From: Bacteroidales bacterium
GTDB taxonomy: Bacteria; Bacteroidota; Bacteroidia; Bacteroidales; UBA3824
Assembly (NCBI GenBank): GCA_016286055.1
Contig: JAEERW010000008.1
Span: 1 to 64,000, forward strand
Reading direction: 5' to 3'
Length of the DNA stretch: 64,000 nt
Each line of letters opens with the position of its first letter. Positions within the stretch are counted from its first letter, which is position 1. Below the pieces are notes generated by a model. The model had not been told where the DNA came from. It did no database searches and saw only the letters and a program-made list of their open reading frames with translations. Positions 1,977-37,875 of the stretch are shown here, in pieces. The position numbers and the translations under genes are program-made.

Positions 1977-4900
1977 ATGGATTACAGATACAAAATCTTC
2001 ATAAGTTACCGCCGTGACGACGCGGTGTTCAAAGATACTGTTTACAATATCCTCAGCGAGTATATCGACGAGGACAGGATTTTTGTGGACACGGTGGAAT
2101 TAAATAAAAGGCCAAACAAATGGTTTGAAACCATACACGACGCATTGCTTTCGTCAGAATATATTTTGATTTGTGTAAACAAAGATACCTTCAATCGTGA
2201 ATCGCAAGAAAATAAAACAGATTGGTATTACAAAGAAATTGAAATTGCACTGCAAAGACAGAAAGAGGACAATTCTGTACACATCATTCCAATAATAAAT
2301 GTTCGTCCAAATTTTGACGAAACACCATTTCCTGAACTTTCTCCATTTCAAGATGTAAGGTATCGAATAAAAGAGAGAAATACTACATTTCAAGAACGAT
2401 TATTGAATATTTTGGGAATAGAAGATAGAAAAAATGGAAATAAATCTTCTTATCCCACAATAATTAAAAACATAGTATTCCCAAACAATCTTGTTCCACG
2501 TTTTGATATGCTCAACAAAGTGTGGAAAAGTTTTTATAACCATAATTGTGTGGTAGTCAGTGGTATTGGCGGCAGCGGAAAAACGTCTTTGGCATATCTG
2601 TACGCAAAGGAACAGAATTTTAATAATGTTGCCTGGGTAACAGTTAACGGCAAAATTGAAGACGCCTTTTTGGAAAAAATGGCAGAGATATTATTTGAAG
2701 GGGAAGAACAAGAACGATTTATACAAAATCAAAATAAACCAGTAAAACTTGCAATAGTTAAAAACAAATTATCAAACATTAAAGGTAAAAATCTACTTGT
2801 GTTGGATGTCAACACAAACAATGAAACAATAAAACAAGAGATTAACACACAAATATATAAATATCTCCCGTCTGACAATTGGAAAACACTTGTATTGACG
2901 CGAGCAATTGTCAAAAATAAAAACCGTTTTGCGTTCATTGAGATGGACAAAATGACGGGAGAAGAAGCCAAAGAATTGTTTTTAAACAATTATGATGGTT
3001 GTATAAAATTTTCGGATGACCAACTCGACATAATTGTAAATGAACTTTATTACCATCCGCTTTTGATAGAGCAAACTGCAATTGCGGTTTTCAATAGCCA
3101 AGAAACAGATGCAGAGGAAGTATTAAACAATATCAAAGGGAATAAGGTTAAAAATAAGCGAACAGAAGAAATTTTAGGCGGTTTAGCAATCGAAGAAAAG
3201 GAAATACAAGATATATACACATATCTTATCAACCTCTGCAACATAGAAAATCTTTCAGAAGACGAAGTAAACTTCCTCGCCGTCTATGTTACTTGGCCCA
3301 ATGAACCAATTGCTAACGAAGCAATAGAAACTCTTTTGCCAGATAGCAAAGAAAAACTAAACTCACTTATAGAAAAAGGTATCCTTTCCCATAATGACAA
3401 GCATTACTCCATCCACAGTCTTATGGGTGACGTCTTGCGCGAACAAATCAACATCAGAGAATTTGATTATTCAGAATATCTTGATAATATCGACAAAATT
3501 CTTGATGACGACATAAAATCCGTCACCTTGCACAGTTACTCCAAATGCATCGCAAGTAGTTTCATCAACTACGGAATTTGTGGACGTATTGCTTTGTTCT
3601 ATTCTTTTCTCAATCAATTGCGTGACAACAATGATGTCATTCTCTATCAATTGCCAATGCCTGAATTATATCATTTAGTAAACGAATTTGAGAAATACGC
3701 AGAACCATACGATTTAGCCGACTTGTATAATGCCATAGCAAGAGTTGAGGTGTTCAAAAACAATCTTTCCGATGCAAAAATGCATTATGAAAAGGCATTG
3801 AAAGTAATAGAAGGTGCAGATGAAAATGATGAAACATTGGATTCAAAAAGTGCGTATCTTCAAAACCTTGCAATGCTCGAAGTAAACCTTGGTGATACCG
3901 ATTCCGCAAAAAAGCATTTTGAAGAATCGGTGAAAATAAAAAGGGAACTGCCAGAAACGCCGAAGTATTTGGATAGTTTGGCAAACACCTTAGGCAACCT
4001 TGCAGGTCTCGAAGAAAACCTTGACGAAAACGATTCCGCAAAAAAACATTTGCAAGAAGCGATTGAAATAAGTAGAAGACAGCCGGAAAAGCCGATTTAT
4101 TTGGACTTATTGTCAGGTACCATCAACAACCTTGCAATGCTCGAAAAAAACCTTGGCGACAACGATTCCGCAATAATGAATTATGAAGAAGCGGTAGAAA
4201 TAAATAGGAAACTGCTGAAACTGGCGGAAACGCCACAGTATTTTGATAATTTGGCAAAAACTCTCAATAACCTTGCAATGCTCGAAGATAACCTTGGCGA
4301 CACCGATTCCGCAAAAAAGCATTTTGAAGAAGCGGTGATAATTGAAAGGGGATTGCCAGAAACACCGCAGTATTTGTATAGTTTGGCAACCACCCTTGGT
4401 AACCTTGCAGATCTCGAAAAAAAACTTGGCGACAACGATTCCGCAAAAAAACATTATGAAGAACAGATTGAAATAAGTAGAAAACTGCCGGAAACGCCGG
4501 ATTATTTGGACTCATTGTCAAGTACCATCAACAACCTTGCAATGCTCGAAGAAAATCTTGACGATACCGATTCCGCAAAAAAGCATTATGAAGAATCGTT
4601 AGAAATAAAAAGGAAACTGCCGGATACGCCGAAGTATTTGAATAGTTTGGCAACCACCCTTGGTAACCTAGAAGATCTCGAAGAAGACCTTGGCGACACC
4701 GATTCTGCGAAAAAGCATTTGGAAGAAGCGATTGAAATAAGGAGACAACTGCCGGAAACACCGGATTATTTGGACTTATTGTCAGGTACCATCAACAACC
4801 TTGCAATGCTCGAAAAAAACCTTGGCGACAACAATTCCGCAAAAAAACATTATGAAGAATCGGTGGAAGTAAAAAGGAAACTGCCAAAAACGCCACAGTA

Positions 4901-21705: not shown

Positions 21706-21960
21706 ATGCCAACATTGCAATGGATAGGAAAAGAGGCGATTGTAAGCCACGCCGACAAAGTGCCGTTCCGTGTTTTGGAGCGCCAATATTCGTATGCCAA
21801 CCCCGTAGAGACGTGCCACGGCGCGTCTCCATCATCCAACAACAAAATAATCCACGGCGACAATCTTGAAGCCCTCAAAGCCCTTTTGCCACAATACGAG
21901 GGTAAAATCAAAAAAAATTTTCGTAAATGTCAGCACTATCAGACCTTATATCGCAAATAG
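21706..21960 (+). pseudogene. N-terminal remnant of a second DNA methyltransferase (type III Mod-like)
   Basis: MPTLQWIGKEAIVSHADKVPFRVLE...NKIIHGDNLEALKALLPQYEGKIK matches the usual N-terminus preceding CIYIDPPYNTG in Mod proteins, then stops; overlaps the intact mod start. Confidence 0.7.
21808..21829. repeat. Palindromic element inside the mod remnant
   Basis: GAGACGTGCC-AC-GGCGCGTCTC (10-bp arms, one G-T wobble). Confidence 0.6.
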
Positions 21961-24026
21961 AAAACCCCGACCTTAGGGCGAGGATTCAAGCCGAAACCGA
22001 CAAACTTTTCAAGCAAAAAAAGTTTGGGCTTGTGTTTGAAGACCACTTGCCCGAAACTACGCTTTTGTACGGCACTCCAATCCGTTCAGGAATGACTGCC
22101 GCTCCCCAAAACGACACTAAGCGTCTCCTTACGGTGCTTTCTATCAACGACGGAGAATGTATTGTGGCAGACAATGCCACTAAGCAGACTTTCACCATCC
22201 CTGCCAGCGACCTTGTGGCTGTGGCACAGTTTGGAGAACCTATATATCCGAGCCTTACGCCTATCGACAGTATTTACAACAATACCGACCCCGACGCGCC
22301 CGCTCACGCACTTATACAAGCCGACAATTATCACGCGCTCCAACTTTTGGAATATCTCTATGCCGAAAAGGTAGATTGTATTTACATTGACCCACCGTAT
22401 AATACCGGAGCACGTGATTGGAAATACAACAACGATTATGTGGATTCTTCCGACACTTACCGCCACTCCAAATGGCTCTCTATGATGAAGAAACGCCTTC
22501 TTTTGGCTAAAAAACTTCTCAATCCCGCCGATAGTGTTATGATTGTAACCATCGACGAAAAAGAATATTTGCATCTTGGCTGTCTTTTGGAGGAGTTGTT
22601 TCCCGAGGCAAGGATGCAGATGATAAGTAGCGTTATAAGCCCCGGAGGTGCTAGTAGGTTAAATGCTTTTAATAGGACAAACGAATTTGTTTTTTTTGTA
22701 ATGTTCGGCAATTCTGCACCACAAGCATTACCTTTAAGTGATGATTGGAAAGGGAATATAAAAGGCGGTTCAAGAGATACTCTTCGATGGAGAGAGTTAC
22801 GTCGCGCAAGTACAAATTCGCGCAGAATTGATAGACCTAATTTATTTTACCCAATTTACTTGTCAACAGACGGAAAAAAGATTTTGGGTTGTGGAAAATC
22901 ACCGTCTTTTGGAGAAGATTATCAAAAATGGGAGTCCCCTTTTGATAATTCCATTATAATATTCCCAATTAGACCTAATGGAGAGGAAGGTAATTGGCAA
23001 TTATCACAAACTAAATTGATTGAAATGTATCAAAAGGGATATGTGAAAATTGGAAATTACAGAGGTGTAGAAACTGCCTTTTCATATATAGCGCAGGGTG
23101 AACAAGAAAAAGTAGAAAATGGACTTTTCCCTATTATTGGCAGACGAGATGACGGCTCTATTATAGTTGATGATAGTAAATATGAAGCAAATTATATCCC
23201 AAGTACACAATGGTGGATTAATTCTCACGATGCTACACAAAACGGTACAAAACTTATAAATTCAATATTGGGGAGAGGTAGATTTGATTTTCCAAAATCC
23301 CTATACGCAGTTCACGATGCAATACGATTCTTTGTCGCCAACAAACCAAATGCGTTGATAGTTGATTTTTTTGCAGGAAGCGGCACAACGGCTCACGCTG
23401 TTAATCTATTAAATGCAGAAGACGGCGGCAAACGTCAATGCATAATGGTAACAAACAACGAAGTATCGGCAGAGGAGGCAAAAACCTTACAGCAAAAAGG
23501 ATTTCAGCCGGGCGACCCCGAATGGGAGCGTCTTGGAATTGCCCGCTACGTAACTTGGCCACGCACCGTTTGCAGCATCAAGGGCGAGGACGTAAACGGC
23601 AATCCTCTCAAAGGCGAGTACATCGGCTCTGAACTAAAAATGTCTGACGGATTCAAGGCTAATGTCGTGTTTTTCCGTCTCGGATTCCTTAACAAAACCG
23701 CCGTTTCGCTCGGTCGTCAGTTCAAGGAACTTTTGCCACTCCTTTGGCTCAAATCGGGCGGCAAAGGCAAATGTCCCAATCTCGACACCACAGAGATTCC
23801 GAAGATGCTCATCCTGCCAGAAAACGCATTTGCCGTGCTTTGCGACGAGAATTATTTTGCAGAGTTTGAGCAAAAACTCATCCATCTGCCTCAGATAGCC
23901 ACCGTCTTTATAATCACCGACTACGAAAACGGTTTCAAGCGTATGAGCCAGTCGCTCTCCGTCCAAAACTGTTACCAACTGTACAGAGATTATTTAGACA
24001 ATTTTAGAATCAATGTATTAACGTAA
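21927..24026 (+). CDS. mod: Type III restriction-modification DNA methyltransferase (Mod)
   Basis: DPPYNTGARDWKYNNDYVD upstream of FFAGSGTTAHAVNLLN (beta-class order); followed by res. Confidence 0.93.
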   Translation: MSALSDLISQIENPDLRARIQAETDKLFKQKKFGLVFEDHLPETTLLYGTPIRSGMTAAPQNDTKRLLTVLSINDGECIVADNATKQTFTIPASDLVAVAQFGEPIYPSLTPIDSIYNNTDPDAPAHALIQADNYHALQLLEYLYAEKVDCIYIDPPYNTGARDWKYNNDYVDSSDTYRHSKWLSMMKKRLLLAKKLLNPADSVMIVTIDEKEYLHLGCLLEELFPEARMQMISSVISPGGASRLNAFNRTNEFVFFVMFGNSAPQALPLSDDWKGNIKGGSRDTLRWRELRRASTNSRRIDRPNLFYPIYLSTDGKKILGCGKSPSFGEDYQKWESPFDNSIIIFPIRPNGEEGNWQLSQTKLIEMYQKGYVKIGNYRGVETAFSYIAQGEQEKVENGLFPIIGRRDDGSIIVDDSKYEANYIPSTQWWINSHDATQNGTKLINSILGRGRFDFPKSLYAVHDAIRFFVANKPNALIVDFFAGSGTTAHAVNLLNAEDGGKRQCIMVTNNEVSAEEAKTLQQKGFQPGDPEWERLGIARYVTWPRTVCSIKGEDVNGNPLKGEYIGSELKMSDGFKANVVFFRLGFLNKTAVSLGRQFKELLPLLWLKSGGKGKCPNLDTTEIPKMLILPENAFAVLCDENYFAEFEQKLIHLPQIATVFIITDYENGFKRMSQSLSVQNCYQLYRDYLDNFRINVLT

Positions 24027-24047
24027 GGGCGTACCTTGGGTACGTCC
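24027..24047. repeat. Short hairpin between mod and res
   Basis: GGGCGTACC-TTG-GGTACGTCC, 9-bp stem with one wobble. Confidence 0.55.
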
Positions 24048-24063
24048 GCATCTATCAACAACA

Positions 24064-26925
24064 ATGAGAGTAGAATTATTTCCATTTCAGATAAAAGCGG
24101 TAAACGATTTGCGCCGCAAGACAGCCAGTGCGCTCGGCTTTTATCAGCAGACACATACGCCACAGGTAATTTCGCTGCAAGCACCCACCGGCGCGGGCAA
24201 AACAATAATGATGGCATCGTTTGTAGAAGATGTTATCTACGGCACGGAGGAATTTGAAGAACAGCCCAAGGCTATTTTTGTGTGGCTGTCTGATTCGCCA
24301 CAACTCAACCAACAGTCACAAAACAAGTTTCTAAAATCCGACAAAATTCGCATAAATCAATGTATCAGCATTCAAGACGACAATTTTGATAGAGAAACAT
24401 TCGACGATGGCAAAATCTATTTTCTCAACACACAAAAAATCGGCAAATCGGGCAACCTCTCCCAGCACTCCGACAGCCGCCAATATACCATTTGGGAAAC
24501 CGTAGAAAACACCATACAGCAAAAGTCAGACCGGCTATATTTCATAATCGACGAGGCTCACCGTGGAATGCAAGGCAAGGAAGCCGGCAGAGCCACATCA
24601 ATAATGCAGAGGTTTATCAAGGGCGCACCAGATTACGGCCTTAAAACGCCTGTACCTGTAATAATTGGTATAAGTGCCACATCTGCACGTTTTAATGCAC
24701 TTGTGGGCGACACCACCTCCACGCTACACAAAGTGATTGTACCGGCGGCGGATGTACGTGCGTCAGGCCTTCTCAAAGACCGCATCGTAATCACATACCC
24801 GGGCGACACTCAAAAAAACAACGAAATGGCAGTGCTTGACGCCGCCACCGACGAATGGGTTGGCAAAGTAAAGCATTGGCATCAGTACTGTTACGAGCAA
24901 CATTATGCCTACGTTAATCCTATTTTTGTAATTCAGGTTAAGGCAGGCAACGCCGAAAAAATATCAGAAACCGACCTTGAAACCGTCATTGCCAAAATTG
25001 AAGAACGCGCAGATATAAAATTTGAACCTTTTGAAGTGGTGCATACTTTTGGCGACCACGGCGATTTAACGCTCAACGGTCTAAAAGTAAGTCACATAGA
25101 CCCCAGCGACATTGCCGACAACCGCAAAGTAAAAGTTGTTCTTTTCAAAGAGAACCTTTCCACAGGATGGGATTGTCCACGTGCCGAAACAATGATGAGT
25201 TTCCGCCACGCCGAAGACGCCACTTACATAGCGCAGTTGTTAGGTCGTATGGTACGCACTCCGATGCAATGCCGTGTAAAGGTTGACGAATATCTCAACG
25301 ATGTTAGGCTTTATTTACCTTATTTCGATGTTGATACAGTAAAAAGCGTAGTAGACGAACTTCAAAATACCGAAGGTGGCGAAATACCTACATTTATTGA
25401 CGACGAGCAATTAGGTCACACTAAATACAATACGTATTCGGTGCATATCACTCACAAAAAACAAGACGACGACTATCCCTCATTGTTTGACGGAAACAAC
25501 AATGAAACTAATAACGAAACAAACAACGAAACTAACAGCGAAACTAATAACGAAACTAACAGCGAAACGGAAAGCAGTAATACTACTGATAGTAATACTG
25601 ACAATGACACCAATACAAACAACGATACCAATACTGATACAGTAACAGTAGAAGAAACAAATGTTGTCATTGTAGAACCTGACAATTCTCAGCAGACACC
25701 ACCCGAAAAGACAAAGCCAGAAGAGAAAAAGAAGCCTGTGGTTATGCCTCAACTATTTGAAATCAACATCGATCGCGAGGGGATAATCAAATATATCAAC
25801 GACTTGGGCATAATAACGTATCAGGTAAGAAGTGTAAAAATCAATAGTTACCTAAAATCTCTTCTTAGCCTTTCTTCGCTACTTACACAAACCAACATTA
25901 AGCGCGACGCCAAAGATGTAGTAACTGCCGATGTGGTGGGTAAAATTCACGATTATGTTCAAAAACTACATCAATCGGGTCATTACGATAATTTGGCAAA
26001 AGATGTACTTACATATAAATTGTCGATCAAAATATTTGACGTTTTCGGTTCAGCAATCAACAGCAATGACGTATCCGACCTTTTTACAATGAGCAACAGT
26101 GAACTTGACAGGCTATTGCGCATAGTGGAAACAAAACTTGGTGGCTTCGGTTTTACAAACAAATACGGCGACAAATATTTCGACGAAAACAATCCCGACA
26201 ATTTCAAGATGGATTGCATTCTTTATGCCTTGGAAGAAAAAAATATCGAAGAGTTAAACAATTATGCAGGCAAAAAATTCCACTCGTTAGACGATGAATA
26301 CCGCAAATACATAGTTGCCAAATCTGAGGAAATCAAAAAGCAATATGCTTCCATTATAGCCAATGGCGATGCTGTCAGCAAGCACTCGTTTTCATTGCCC
26401 GAAACAATACAAGTGCCAGTAAACGACAACGGAAAGGTTTACTACGACCATCTGTTTGCTGACGAAAAAACAGGCAAGGCGCAGATTAAACTCAATTCTT
26501 GGGAAGAAGGCGTTATTGAAGAAGAAAAACGCCGTGCGGATTTTGTTTGTTGGTTTCGCAACGAATCACGCAAACAATGGTCGCTCACTATACCTTACGA
26601 AATCAATAACGAAACCAAGGCTACATATCCTGATTTTATCATTGTGCGCCGCGATGCAAGTTTGGGATATATACTCGACATATTGGAGCCGCACGACCCC
26701 ACCCGTACCGACAATCTGCCCAAAGCCAAAGGCTTTGCCCGATATGCTGCGGAGGAATTCAAGATCGGCCGTATTCAACTTATCCGCAAAATAAAAGAGC
26801 AGACCGGCGAAAAATTCCATCGTCTCGACTTCTCCAAAGGCGAAATCCGACAAAAAGTATTAAAACTTCAAACTCCTGAGGAATTAGACCATTTGTTTGA
26901 AACTGACGGAATTATGGAAAAGTAA
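24064..26925 (+). CDS. res: Type III restriction enzyme Res (helicase-endonuclease)
   Basis: QAPTGAGKTIMMASF, IIDEAHRGMQG, LSTGWDCPRAETMMSFRHAEDATYIAQLLGRMVRTP, C-terminal YPDFIIVRR...ILDILEPHD. Confidence 0.92.
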   Translation: MRVELFPFQIKAVNDLRRKTASALGFYQQTHTPQVISLQAPTGAGKTIMMASFVEDVIYGTEEFEEQPKAIFVWLSDSPQLNQQSQNKFLKSDKIRINQCISIQDDNFDRETFDDGKIYFLNTQKIGKSGNLSQHSDSRQYTIWETVENTIQQKSDRLYFIIDEAHRGMQGKEAGRATSIMQRFIKGAPDYGLKTPVPVIIGISATSARFNALVGDTTSTLHKVIVPAADVRASGLLKDRIVITYPGDTQKNNEMAVLDAATDEWVGKVKHWHQYCYEQHYAYVNPIFVIQVKAGNAEKISETDLETVIAKIEERADIKFEPFEVVHTFGDHGDLTLNGLKVSHIDPSDIADNRKVKVVLFKENLSTGWDCPRAETMMSFRHAEDATYIAQLLGRMVRTPMQCRVKVDEYLNDVRLYLPYFDVDTVKSVVDELQNTEGGEIPTFIDDEQLGHTKYNTYSVHITHKKQDDDYPSLFDGNNNETNNETNNETNSETNNETNSETESSNTTDSNTDNDTNTNNDTNTDTVTVEETNVVIVEPDNSQQTPPEKTKPEEKKKPVVMPQLFEINIDREGIIKYINDLGIITYQVRSVKINSYLKSLLSLSSLLTQTNIKRDAKDVVTADVVGKIHDYVQKLHQSGHYDNLAKDVLTYKLSIKIFDVFGSAINSNDVSDLFTMSNSELDRLLRIVETKLGGFGFTNKYGDKYFDENNPDNFKMDCILYALEEKNIEELNNYAGKKFHSLDDEYRKYIVAKSEEIKKQYASIIANGDAVSKHSFSLPETIQVPVNDNGKVYYDHLFADEKTGKAQIKLNSWEEGVIEEEKRRADFVCWFRNESRKQWSLTIPYEINNETKATYPDFIIVRRDASLGYILDILEPHDPTRTDNLPKAKGFARYAAEEFKIGRIQLIRKIKEQTGEKFHRLDFSKGEIRQKVLKLQTPEELDHLFETDGIMEK
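25498..25641 (+). repeat. In-frame 12-bp minisatellite (NNET/NSET) plus degenerate DTNT tract within res
   Basis: Six consecutive 12-bp units AACAATGAAACT AATAACGAAACA AACAACGAAACT AACAGCGAAACT AATAACGAAACT AACAGCGAAACG, then degenerate. Confidence 0.85.
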
Positions 26926-28332: not shown

Positions 28333-29553
28333 TCAACTCACCACCAAATCCCGACGGTGCAATAAGAAATCAACAATATTAATATGCGCTATTCCGTTGC
28401 GGCTCATATCTATCTTATCTAACGAAAGGACGTATTTGGGCGAAGAATCGCTGATTGGAGCAAAAGCCGAAAACTCTCGCTCTATTGTTGACTGCGACGC
28501 CAAAAGATACGATACTTGAATAAAGCACTTTTTCGCGTTAAGAATGGCTACAAAATCCACTTCGCCTTTGTAAGTCTTGCCGGTGAACACAGTGTAGCCA
28601 CGCATTAGCAACTCATTGTAAATGATGTTTTCAAGGAAAAAAGTATCCTCAAAATTCACTGTGTTGGTATTTATTATGCGCAACCCCATATCCACAGCGT
28701 AATATTTTTCGTTGGCTTTGAGAGCAGCCTTACCCGCAATATTAAACTTTTTGACAGCGTGAAGCAAATACGCCTTCTGCATCTTGTCCAAATAGTTGTT
28801 GATAGTTTGACGTGTTATCGACTTTTTGGTGTTCGACTTGTAGTAATTGATAACATTCTCAACCGAAAATTCACGTCCAGCATTAGCCAAAATATAGAGT
28901 GATATTTCCACAAAGGTCTTCTTGTCGAATCGCGAATTTTTCTTTACAATGTCTTTCTTAATGATTCCTTCGTACAAGGTTATAAGATAACGGCGGATAT
29001 CGGCTTCACGGTTAAAATCAAACCGCATAGGGAATCCTCCCCATTTGATATAGTCATAAATTGAATCATCCGAAAAACTGCGGTTATTCTTTTCCAAATA
29101 CTCTTTCATCTCTAAAAACGAAAACGGCATTATCTCAAATTCTACCGTCCTGCCTGTAAGCAACGTTGCTAATTCGCCCGACAAAAGGGTAGAATTGCTA
29201 CCCGTTACAAATACTGACACATTGAGTGTGGCTCTAAACGACGACAAAGCCTTCTCAAAGTTCTTTACGTATTGAATTTCATCAAGAAAAATATAATACT
29301 TCTTGCCGTCAACGATACGCGATTTGACTTCTTTATTAAGGTCGGTTGCAGTTTTAATATACTCAAAATCAATATCTTCTAAATTGATATAAATCACGTG
29401 GTCGCCAGTGATACCGTTTTGGATTATTTCATCTTTGATGGTTTGAAGTATTATTGATTTGCCACAACGACGAATGCCCGTAATCACTTTGATCAGGTCT
29501 ACATCGTAATAAGGGCGAATGGTATCTAAGTAACTTTCTCGTTTGATAAGCAT
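28333..29553 (-). CDS. AAA_14-type ATPase with C-terminal DUF4143
   Basis: ITGIRRCGKSIILQTIKDE, YYIFLDEIQYVKNFEKAL, VFVTGSNSTLLSGELATLLTGR, KGEVDFVAIL. Start at ATG 29553 downstream of TAAATTTGC (minus) at 29574-29582. Confidence 0.9.
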   Translation of the reverse strand: MLIKRESYLDTIRPYYDVDLIKVITGIRRCGKSIILQTIKDEIIQNGITGDHVIYINLEDIDFEYIKTATDLNKEVKSRIVDGKKYYIFLDEIQYVKNFEKALSSFRATLNVSVFVTGSNSTLLSGELATLLTGRTVEFEIMPFSFLEMKEYLEKNNRSFSDDSIYDYIKWGGFPMRFDFNREADIRRYLITLYEGIIKKDIVKKNSRFDKKTFVEISLYILANAGREFSVENVINYYKSNTKKSITRQTINNYLDKMQKAYLLHAVKKFNIAGKAALKANEKYYAVDMGLRIINTNTVNFEDTFFLENIIYNELLMRGYTVFTGKTYKGEVDFVAILNAKKCFIQVSYLLASQSTIEREFSAFAPISDSSPKYVLSLDKIDMSRNGIAHINIVDFLLHRRDLVVS

Positions 29554-29573
29554 AGTTGACGATTTTTGTTTTC

Positions 29574-29582
29574 GCAAATTTA
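29574..29582 (-). promoter_or_regulatory. -7 box (TAAATTTGC on minus) of the AAA_14/DUF4143 gene
   Basis: GCAAATTTA on + strand, ~21 nt upstream of ATG 29553. Confidence 0.5.
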
Positions 29583-29616
29583 TATAAATAATTTTCAAAA
29601 ACAAAATATTTTTTCA

Positions 29617-29759
29617 AAATTGTAAAAGATAAACACATCATATCGTTTACATTTTAATAAAAATTTGCAAATTGTAAAAGTTCAAAAGGTGCAAGCGTTT
29701 ACATTTTAATAAATTTTAGAAAATTGTAAAAGTTCAATAGGCATCAGCATTTACAATTT
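29617..29759. repeat. Three-copy iteron array, 52-bp period
   Basis: AAATTGTAAA at 29617, 29669, 29721, each followed by exactly 19 variable nt and TTTACA(A/T)TTT at 29646, 29698, 29750. Confidence 0.85.
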
Positions 29760-29796
29760 AAAAATAACAATAGAGCAATACCCAAAAAATAATTCG

Positions 29797-29805
29797 TATC
29801 TTTGC
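29797..29805 (+). promoter_or_regulatory. -7 box TATCTTTGC
   Basis: tcgtatctttgcg, ~42 nt upstream of ATG 29847. Confidence 0.55.
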
Positions 29806-29846
29806 GAATAATTATCAATTCAAAAACCTAAAAAACATACCACACT

Positions 29847-32600: not shown

Positions 32601-32918
32601 ATGGAAATAGTTTTTGAGAAAGATTATTTAAGCAAATTATACTATAAAGGTGATTCGGGAGACAAAAAGCATCGTTTTCAACCACAGATAGTAAAAAAAT
32701 ACATCAACACTGTGAACTTACTTGAAAGCATTCAAAAACCCGATGACCTTTACAAATACCGCGCATTGAACTACGAAAAACTCCTTGGCGACAAGGAAGG
32801 AACAGAATCAGTAAGGATAAACGACAAATATCGTATTGAATTCAGAACATATCCTTCCGAAAAAGAAACAAGAATTGTAATATGCAGCATTATTGAATTG
32901 TCAAACCATTATAAATAA
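32601..32918 (+). CDS. higB: HigB/RelE-family toxin
   Basis: KYRALNYEKLLGDKEGTESVRINDKYRIEFRTYPSEKETRIVICSIIELSNHYK; followed by HigA-like gene. Confidence 0.8.
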   Translation: MEIVFEKDYLSKLYYKGDSGDKKHRFQPQIVKKYINTVNLLESIQKPDDLYKYRALNYEKLLGDKEGTESVRINDKYRIEFRTYPSEKETRIVICSIIELSNHYK

Positions 32919-32925
32919 ACTAATT

Positions 32926-33237
32926 ATGAGCAACTTAGGTTATGGATTCTACCCCACTCATCCGGGAGAGATTTTGACAGAAGAAATTGAGTACAGACAT
33001 ATTAAACCTGAAAAATTGGCGTCTTATATTGGAGTTCAGACAGAATCTTTTCAAGATATCCTGTCAGCCAAAAAGCCTCTGACGGCAGAAATTGCACTTA
33101 TGTTAGAGGCTGCGCTTGACATTCCCGCCGATTCGTTAATGCAGATGCAGACCAAATATAATATGCAGACAGCACGTCAGGATAAGAATTTTATCGACAA
33201 ACTCAACCAAATCAAGAAAATAGCAGCAGTATTTTAA
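32926..33237 (+). CDS. higA: HigA-family XRE antitoxin
   Basis: YPTHPGEILTEEIEYRHIKPEKLASYIGVQTESFQDILSAKKPLTAEIALMLEAALDIPADSLMQMQTKYNMQ. Confidence 0.85.
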   Translation: MSNLGYGFYPTHPGEILTEEIEYRHIKPEKLASYIGVQTESFQDILSAKKPLTAEIALMLEAALDIPADSLMQMQTKYNMQTARQDKNFIDKLNQIKKIAAVF

Positions 33238-36200: not shown

Positions 36201-36416
36201 TTGGGAGAAAAAAGCGGACAGCACACCGCCATCACCACCGATGCCAACGGACATTTCACCGGCTCAACTCACATCAAATTTCGCGAAATACAGTTGCGCA
36301 ACCTTCCGCTCAATATCACCCTTCACACCGAAGACCAGCGCACCGGCACCTACCGCCGTACCAAAATGTGGGTAGGCGCAGATATGGCAGGATTTGGAAT
36401 TAGAATGGGAAATTAA
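33252..36416 (+). CDS. Large secreted TPR-containing protein of unknown function
   Basis: Signal peptide MLLMPFAASAQ; TPR segment YNNAGILMAYKGETENAKDLFMQALAIDNQNAIVQVNLANYYLEKGDLINARKYAENALSTQPDFGEAYQIL. Confidence 0.7.
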   Translation: MHRITTHIIASAMLLMPFAASAQNTYVSKPAADLISSGHYFIRFDGKVHDPEQNTDIKMQIATAVKDGVSCTFNESADALTLNTAKGTFMLDVKAKTYRVINQTNQTFNIGRLTFQKQGTCKLNGKDFYFDEYRSTLGNKVRFFYNSTKIAAVDFGAPEMPVVNISTLDKKIPQNMILCLSPEWKSSGGGAGGVPNNMQQQIIEQMRKEIDPNDLPPGMTVDDMINMALGRMNGGAAQNRPTTPAIEPPKCAQPYNDPSPSNDLADPTSYSNIQITDIKYLTTPVYASRFSKPKTQGVFNPSMEVTEEGVKQQLQALDQKFANMSVEQIEKYMTQASSDIMTAIQFNLVNGSLIEYSLALCVVNPTALNYNNAGILMAYKGETENAKDLFMQALAIDNQNAIVQVNLANYYLEKGDLINARKYAENALSTQPDFGEAYQILTGVNIKENKFYEATTTLFKSAETFFNDITAMQFFSLIYNLKVEQYKVAENPSYPYMNVVNKVFTKENFESLTRATKAGGVSNGQDVIQNMKEFPWPVNNAEIWQLHESYLSKSNHKVSNALTKLNERNKEVMDQDRYAILYYESMGMQNANKELERTEGIINQLSEKNVSLHLPELDMYQRISNQMANDNEVIYYPDARQFWCLKMWECYYEIMLQYHEGFWYDPDNGNPVNYPAIYPAMNSKFKALENNLEIAFNNHKKRLEEIDKDLAKCLEKAKTERGQVRCLINAAQQKMDAGETYVRGKVQSHYIDIIHQYKECYNLEIKPTLEEWWQKTIAMGAYCDKYAVMEYFENDVLHAANLSWLDNNYRKAWENGKMIQNNWDLWVERPRRERDSLYEILAELPPDPPQPPQQMSAGGSDGLDTGDHYLKTYGEKERPWIEVGFDAGPLGRIGLRRESNGDISITNEGNVFTGTNKKWNLSNGETTTTGYLTLADQQRIKDKGGFTSRIADYMTQKSEGVPLIGRVIAAAKNHSEGTGFQPFLGEKSGQHTAITTDANGHFTGSTHIKFREIQLRNLPLNITLHTEDQRTGTYRRTKMWVGADMAGFGIRMGN

Positions 36417-36495
36417 ATTTGGGGGTTTTGATGCAAATACGCAAAAAAAATTTGGGGATTTTATAACATTTTGGTAAAAAAAATTTGGGGATTTT
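36415..36495 (+). repeat. Three-copy direct-repeat array, 33-bp period
   Basis: AAATTTGGGGGTTTT at 36415-36429, AAATTTGGGGATTTT at 36448-36462 and 36481-36495; first two intervals both end in AAAAA. Confidence 0.85.
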
Positions 36496-36537
36496 GTGTA
36501 TTTTCCCCATTTTTGCATTGCACAAATAATAAAAAGT

Positions 36538-37875
36538 ATGGTAATATTCAAGCGAAAAATATACAGCGAAATGGTTCGTTGGAAAAACGAGAGCAAAGGC
36601 AGCAGTGCATTGCTAATCGAAGGCGCCCGACGCGTAGGCAAATCTACGATAGCCAAAACTTTTGCCGAAAACGAATATAAATCATACATCCTCATTGATT
36701 TTACAAAAGCCTCTAAACGGCTAAACGAGTTGTTTGAAGATATAACAGATTTAGATTTCTTCTTTCTAAATCTTCAAAACATTTATGGCGTATCGCTAAT
36801 AAAACGCGAATCGGTAATAATATTCGACGAAATTCAATTTCAACCGCTTGCTCGTCAGGCCATTAAGCATTTGGTAGCCGACGGTCGATACGATTATATC
36901 GAAACAGGTTCTCTGATAAGCATACAACGTAATGTGCAAAATATACTTATTCCAAGCGAGGAAAGCAAAATTACGCTATATCCTATGGATTTTGACGAGT
37001 TTTATTGGGCAACAGGCAAAAAAGATATGCCCGAATTGCTTAGTCAAGCATACCAAATGCATCGGCCATTAGGAGATGCAACACATAGGAAACTAATGCG
37101 CGATTTAAGGCTGTATATGCTTGTAGGTGGAATGCCACAAGCCGTAGAATCATATCTATCTTCAAACGATTTGAGGATTGTGGACAACAAAAAAAGAGAA
37201 ATACTCGACCTATACGAAAGCGATTTGCGAAAATTAGACCCCTCCTCCAACATTGCATCGCGACTTTTTCGTGCAATACCTAACCAACTTAACAACAATG
37301 CTTCGAGATATATGACCAGAAGCGTGGCTCCAAATCAGAGGATAGAAAAAATAGAGAGTATCATTGCCGATTTGGAAGACAGTAAAACGGTAATAATGGC
37401 TCATCATATCAACGATCCTAACATCGGGATGGGTATGTTTCAAGATTTTGACCGCTACAAAATGTTTATTGCCGACACAGGATTATTTGTTACATTGGCG
37501 TTTTTAGAGAAAAAATATACCGAAAACGTTATTTACCAAAAACTACTGTCAGATAAATTAGACGCCAACTTGGGATATGTATACGAAAACCTTGTGGCTC
37601 AAATGTTGATTTCGCAAGGCAACAAACTGTTTTATTACACTTTTCCTGTTCCCGACAGCAACCACAATTACGAAATAGATTTTATTCTTTCGCGTGGCAA
37701 CAAATTGGTACCTATCGAAGTAAAATCATCTGGCTATAAAACACACAAATCGCTCGATGTATTTTGCAATATATTTTCTAAAAGGGTTGGCGACAGAATC
37801 TTACTCTATACAAAAGACTTTTCAAAAGATAGCGAAACTTTATGTATGCCTATTTACTACACACAATTTTTATAA
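36538..37875 (+). CDS. AAA_14-type ATPase with C-terminal DUF4143
   Basis: LLIEGARRVGKSTIAKTFAENEYKSYILIDF, VIIFDEIQFQPLARQAIKHLV, YIETGSLISIQ, NYEIDFILSRGNKLVPIEVKSS. Confidence 0.9.
   Translation: MVIFKRKIYSEMVRWKNESKGSSALLIEGARRVGKSTIAKTFAENEYKSYILIDFTKASKRLNELFEDITDLDFFFLNLQNIYGVSLIKRESVIIFDEIQFQPLARQAIKHLVADGRYDYIETGSLISIQRNVQNILIPSEESKITLYPMDFDEFYWATGKKDMPELLSQAYQMHRPLGDATHRKLMRDLRLYMLVGGMPQAVESYLSSNDLRIVDNKKREILDLYESDLRKLDPSSNIASRLFRAIPNQLNNNASRYMTRSVAPNQRIEKIESIIADLEDSKTVIMAHHINDPNIGMGMFQDFDRYKMFIADTGLFVTLAFLEKKYTENVIYQKLLSDKLDANLGYVYENLVAQMLISQGNKLFYYTFPVPDSNHNYEIDFILSRGNKLVPIEVKSSGYKTHKSLDVFCNIFSKRVGDRILLYTKDFSKDSETLCMPIYYTQFL

Follow-up and report, generated by a model that had tools for sequence, protein, structure and literature searches.

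A tandem inverted-repeat array beside a PDC-S01-type ATPase gene is probably its own operator, and similar arrays recur across the family

What does an array with constant arms, constant spacing and changing intervals do between two divergent bacterial genes? The question is raised by positions 29612..29767 of the window, the stretch of 64,000 nucleotides from a Bacteroidales bacterium analyzed here, in which the whole array consists of three 52-bp units. As an earlier note on this DNA had described, copies of AAATTGTAAA begin at 29617, 29669 and 29721, each followed by 19 nt and then by the inverse arm, which is TTTACATTTT at 29646 and 29698 and TTTACAATTT at 29750. An independent repeat finder recovered three 52-nt copies at spacings of 52 and 52, with copies 2 and 3 showing 75% and 69% identity to copy 1, and the self-repeat score of the array lies ~24 s.d. 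above that of dinucleotide shuffles. The same letters contain two 33-nt inverted-repeat elements of the form TTTACA-N21-TGTAAA (29646-29678 and 29698-29730), which are identical to each other at 29/33 positions; a dyad scan whose sole input was the repeat lag picked this 33-nt dyad in both copies of the window array (p<=0.01) and chose 34 nt in three orthologues. The array is best read as two 33-nt elements, 19-nt linkers and outer half-sites, and the features of the locus are as follows.

28333..29553, minus strand: AAA_14 + DUF4143 ATPase of 406 aa, PADLOC PDC-S01 (Pfam, PADLOC profile, alignment)
29575..29606, minus strand: Bacteroidota-type ATPase promoter, TTTTG-N19-TAAATTTG (pattern match)
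29617..29626, no strand: outer half-site AAATTGTAAA, adjoining the ATPase promoter; one base changed in G004 and G012
29627..29645, no strand: 19-nt linker 1, differing among species
29646..29678, no strand: predicted 33-nt inverted-repeat operator element, invariant in three species; dyad p<=0.01; unique in the genome together with its twin
29679..29697, no strand: 19-nt linker 2 (species comparison)
29698..29730, no strand: predicted 33-nt inverted-repeat operator element, invariant in three species (dyad; genome uniqueness)
29731..29749, no strand: 19-nt linker 3 (species comparison)
29750..29759, no strand: outer half-site TTTACAATTT, adjoining the divergent gene
29798..29806, plus strand: -7 box TATCTTTGC of the divergent 360-aa gene (sequence)

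Two close species (G004 and G012, ATPase 97-98% identity) retain the array, and a comparison of the array region in the three species revealed 11 variable positions, of which none falls within the 33-nt elements (0/66) versus nine within the linkers (9/57; Fisher p=7e-4), the remaining two lying one in an outer half-site and one outside. Because this distribution and the dyad scan agree, the sites under constraint are the 33-nt inverted repeats, which the 19-nt intervals separate as fixed-length linkers, so that of the two readings offered earlier, 52-bp units or 33-nt repeats with 19-nt intervals, it is the latter that captures the conserved unit. The intervals do differ between copies, as had been claimed, but they are not freely variable: the second and third 19-mers have 13/19 positions in common, and species differ by a few bases. 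With up to three mismatches allowed, the 33-nt element occurs twice in the whole genome, both times in the array. A looser pattern, TTGTAAA-N19-TTTACA, was tried as the signature of a wider regulon and rejected, as its 45 genome matches compared with 31 for the reversed control (both strands, palindromic) are near chance outside the array.

The array belongs to the ATPase gene. In two other genomes (G015 and G017), ATPase and array are absent as one block (28333-29789) and a different gene occupies the site; the flanks are of 94-98% identity up to 28332, the waaA stop codon, and homology resumes at 29790 (BLASTN of the empty site), in the -7 box region of the right-hand gene. This joint absence bears out the earlier assignment of the array to the ATPase, and the promoter position proposed for that gene was also recovered. 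The right-hand gene encodes 360 aa, has no Pfam family and ends in a zinc-ribbon-like C-terminus (CPQCEYVSTGKFCPNCG, by eye); the array as an operator needed by this gene was considered and rejected, its promoter being kept in the two array-less genomes, and shared control of the gene by the array is possible. At more distant loci, the comparison proposed earlier gave a mixed outcome: in same-genus orthologues of 62-64% identity, the array sequence of the window is absent, but an equivalent array of other sequence is present with a spacing of 51. In the Treponema orthologue of 75% identity, the elements are again 33 nt and the linker is 18 nt. The period of 51-52 is distinctive of the window clade, being common to these same-genus orthologues and the Treponema one.

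The ATPase matches PF13173 (E=1.4e-32) and PF13635 (E=7e-12), which joins an ATPase domain to one of PD-(D/E)XK type, carries Walker A (GIRRCGKS) and Walker B (YIFLDEIQ) motifs, and scores E=4e-133 against the PADLOC profile PDLC04787; by profile match and domain fusion, it belongs to the same protein family as PDC-S01. Its C-terminal PD-(D/E)XK-like fold reads EVDFVA...QVS, in which the catalytic Lys of E-x-K is missing. This replacement (QV[A/S/C/T] for E-x-K) is found in 128/152 relatives of the window ATPase, whereas an E-x-K subfamily retains the Lys. Because the catalytic Lys of the motif is lost, the C-terminal domain of the window-ATPase subfamily probably does not cut DNA. PDC-S01, in which an ATPase and a PD-(D/E)XK-type domain are fused, is among the commonest defence candidates of prokaryotes, and most candidates of this kind are not yet validated (PMC12988326). 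It is reported to be the most frequent single locus in rumen genomes (PMC13356809), and it has been ranked fourth among prokaryotic defences by frequency. By their PADLOC assignment, the ATPase of the window and the related genes are phage-defence candidates of the PDC-S01 type. The open-access text that we searched on PDC-S01 deals with prevalence and domains and does not mention operator arrays, self-recognition or loss of the catalytic Lys, and our search of the open-access literature returned no earlier description of operator arrays for the PDC-S01/AAA_14 family.

Our bioinformatics analyses indicate that the constant arms and constant spacing, which the earlier note had singled out as unusual, have equivalents throughout this family. 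ATPase relatives were gathered from Bacteroidales, Treponema, Lachnospiraceae, Oscillospiraceae and Eggerthellaceae; they were reduced to 152 at 80% identity, spanning Bacteroidota, Treponema, Firmicutes and Actinobacteria, and the 220 bp upstream of each start were scored for self-repeat lag. The best lag was 39-42 bp in 96/152 relatives (63%) versus 7/73 promoters of other genes (10%; Fisher p=3e-15), the lags 39, 40, 41 and 42 bp being found in 22, 55, 13 and 6 relatives, respectively. Of the four controls that were significant, one is the window array viewed from the divergent gene's side and another is the window's second AAA_14 gene. The effect is present in 10 of the 15 non-redundant loci from outside Bacteroidota, these 15 being the whole sample of other phyla. 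About a third of the 40-bp class gave no scored lag, owing to real absence, wrong start codons or weak repeats. Among 29 more AAA_14 genes of the window's genome, 28 have upstream repeats at p<=0.01, with a lag of 32-33 in nearly all and a different sequence at each gene, and in the E-x-K subfamily of the same genus, 77/79 genes are significant, 72 of them with a lag of 32-34. The other AAA_14 subfamilies considered here likewise match PDC-S01 models. A query from the start of the L079 protein served solely to find candidates. The window array is one case of a family-wide feature, with private promoter arrays at nearly every PDC-S01-type gene.

Several loci illustrate this diversity. The window itself harbors a second gene and array that are part of the same phenomenon with a different sequence, the array consisting of AAATTTGGGG three times at 33-bp spacing.

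36410..36505, no strand: second window array, AAATTTGGGGATTTT three times (third copy truncated), period 33, upstream of the second AAA_14 gene
36538..37875, plus strand: second AAA_14/DUF4143 gene, PDC-S01 (PDLC04786 E=1.8e-94), E-x-K motif intact (PIEVK)

Clear arrays also occur in cultured members, among them Rubneribacter badeniensis (L150), with three copies of ACTTTTCAATCGAATGAAAAGT, and Treponema bryantii. The 4.2-Mb genome G000, with 59 AAA_14 matches, shows an unusually large expansion; on its contig C23 (~2852-4008), the divergent AAA_14 genes L070 and L089 share one intergenic region in which each gene has a separate array close by, CTGCAAAAAGTTACT in one case and TATGGAAAAAATGACAAA in the other. 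At L053 (G027 C126), a 40-bp unit recurs across 170 bp or more, which far exceeds the array length of other members. L123-L129 are orthologues of the window ATPase at 68-75% identity in Treponema and Lachnospiraceae/Clostridiales genomes from gut samples, an identity that points to recent transfer across phyla.

A candidate reader of these arrays lies within the ATPase itself. An AlphaFold2 model (mean pLDDT 83) predicts a winged helix-turn-helix at about residues 206-290, with its third helix at 248-260.

28783..28821, minus strand: codons 245-257, SITRQTINNYLDK, predicted recognition helix (AlphaFold2 helix 248-260; covariation peak)

The nearest solved folds are the archaeal ATPases SSO1545 and PABY2304 (PDB 2fna and 2qen), which match over nearly the full length and differ in sequence (15-17% identity), followed by Cdc6/Orc1 on origin DNA, and also NLR resistosomes. 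A precedent for an SSO1545-like ATPase as a DNA-binding transcription regulator is provided by IniR of mycobacteria, whose ATPase domain is predicted to be SSO1545-like and which binds a promoter and controls transcription; it differs in having MalT-like and SdiA-like domains, in activating another operon (iniBAC) and in the absence of a DUF4143 domain (PMC5760070).

For each 13-residue window, operator similarity was compared with protein identity, corrected for identity elsewhere; the comparison used the 125 relatives whose operators were scored and the 2781 gene pairs that fall at 40-80% identity. Over the whole protein, the top windows fell at 242-259 with a peak at 245-257 (rho 0.186; max-statistic permutation p=0.007, a test in which operators were shuffled freely among genes and shared ancestry is not fully removed), and covariation elsewhere was not significant in the AAA domain (p=0.18) or the nuclease domain (p=0.065). 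The second subfamily has its maximum (p=0.010) at L088 residues 245-257 and a lesser one close to the nuclease motif; the 245-257 stretch of L088 likely corresponds to the first two helices of the same DNA-binding domain, not to the recognition helix. Particular helices also go with particular operators. For example, genes of the helix class xDxNTxYNYL have GGTTATAACC-type operators in 7/11 cases versus 2/141 other genes (Fisher p=3.5e-8), the pairing occurs in unrelated families, and several of the remaining four genes have near variants of GGTTATAACC (by eye). Treponema orthologues with ITRQT helices, for their part, have window-like TTTACA/TTGACA...TGTAAA elements.

Taken together, a palindromic, gene-specific site is present at the gene's own promoter, and the helix/operator covariation, which is statistical evidence, points to the gene product as its probable reader. 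The array is probably a cis-acting operator of the ATPase gene, at which the ATPase would bind its own tandem sites and repress its own promoter; the earlier suggestion that the ATPase binds the array is thus probably sound. According to this model, the TTTACA/TGTAAA half-sites would be recognized by the winged helix-turn-helix that lies between the AAA and degenerate nuclease domains, at least two dimers, or higher oligomers, would line up at the fixed 52-bp spacing, and the bound oligomers would shut down the promoter until released by a signal acting on ATP state or assembly (both this switch and the signal, plausibly infection, are guesses). We infer physical binding, cooperativity, repression over activation and the signal from these patterns. 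With an operator sequence of its own at each paralogue, dozens of copies could coexist in one genome without cross-talk, and because there is a private array at each promoter, each copy probably controls only its own expression.

The placement of the arrays would fit a repressor. The last copy typically stops 0-10 bp from the -7 box in the 33-bp classes and often extends over that box in the 40-bp class, and in Treponema and Firmicutes it overlaps the -35, i.e. where a repressor would sit. The periods of 33, 40 and 52 bp correspond to ~3.1, 3.8 and 5.0 helical turns, which are whole turns only roughly, and helical phasing is plausible. At the window locus, the array ends ~10 bp upstream of the -33 element of the ATPase promoter and leaves the core promoter uncovered, so that repression there would call for an oligomer reaching beyond the array or for some other mode; the array might also serve activation, or regulate the divergent gene.

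A bolder reading, which we consider unlikely, is that PDC-S01 acts as a self-addressed immune switch, each copy being held on its private array and the array-bound oligomer forming a sensor disrupted by infection; if so, the dozens of non-redundant copies would be independent detectors, each with its identity in the helix/operator match. That the ATPase-bound array is chiefly an assembly platform or sensor rather than a plain repressor site, with an ATPase filament or ring nucleated on the gene's own DNA that infection would release or trigger, is to our minds distinctly unlikely: the AAA+ and STAND-like fold, with Cdc6/Orc1 and NLR resistosomes as structural neighbors, the fixed period and arrays that far exceed the needs of repression (L053, 40-bp unit, 170+ bp) speak for it, whereas the location at promoters, mostly touching the -7 box, is what simple repression predicts. 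Operation by a different trans-acting regulator, with no binding by the ATPase, strikes us as quite improbable. Promoter-proximal palindromes usually mark a dedicated repressor and the covariation is statistical, but the 33-nt element has no other genome site within three mismatches, no conserved regulator gene adjoins the arrays, the operator differs at every paralogue and the covariation centers on the recognition helix of the ATPase itself. Another reading is of a mobile cassette carrying the ATPase, for which the repeats would be ends, iterons or homing sites, in keeping with the patchy family, the orthologues of 68-75% identity in Treponema and Lachnospiraceae and the gain or loss of ATPase and array as a block. 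It is very improbable, as the repeats lie on the promoter side of the gene only, the swapped block begins at the waaA stop codon with a different gene as the other allele, there is no target-site duplication and the arrays differ among mobile relatives; nor is 'iteron' supported in the sense of plasmid replication, which calls for a Rep protein and a replicon, since the contig is of chromosomal type (224 kb) and the adjacent AAA_14/DUF4143 gene is not of a plasmid initiator family. The hint of a CRISPR-like or small-RNA array, drawn from constant repeats and variable intervals of constant length, can virtually be dismissed, given linkers that resemble one another and drift slowly between species by point mutation, a search of the 19-mers against viral contigs without meaningful match (the sole one, attributed to chance, falls in coding sequence, within a gene predicted to be a phage structural, portal-like one), a position between two divergent promoters of which neither would transcribe the array, an Rfam search without credible match (best E=0.08, taken as chance) and the absence of the CRISPR combination of near-identical repeats, unrelated spacers and mobile-element matches.

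Among known systems, controllers of toxin-antitoxin and restriction-modification genes are DNA-binding proteins that read palindromes at their own promoters, often in tandem and specific to each copy. The ATPase arrays are alike in being palindromes at the gene's own promoter, in tandem and copy-specific, with the ATPase as presumed reader. Unlike in those systems, the predicted reader combines an AAA+ ATPase and a nuclease-like domain in a single polypeptide, the sites number 2-4 or more at a period typical of the subfamily, and a genome may hold dozens of non-redundant operators. For a candidate reported to be as abundant as PDC-S01, the predicted DNA target, which is found beside almost all family members and can be predicted from sequence, would be a first direct handle on which DNA these ATPases bind, on what keeps the copies apart and on how they are released. 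It would also give an apparent recognition code between helix residues and operator, and a means of finding family members from DNA alone.

A pair of genes near the ATPase also provides a defence context. This type III restriction-like pair lies three genes away (21927-26925); one of its genes is DNA methyltransferase-like (DPPYNTG motif, by eye), and the other is for a ResIII helicase-nuclease (PF04851) and has a low-complexity insert at ~25470-25700 (NNETNNETNSET... then NTDND...) that resembles an expandable repeat tract. At 32601-33237, on the other side, a gene for a HigB-like toxin (PF05015) precedes one that probably encodes a HigA-like antitoxin.
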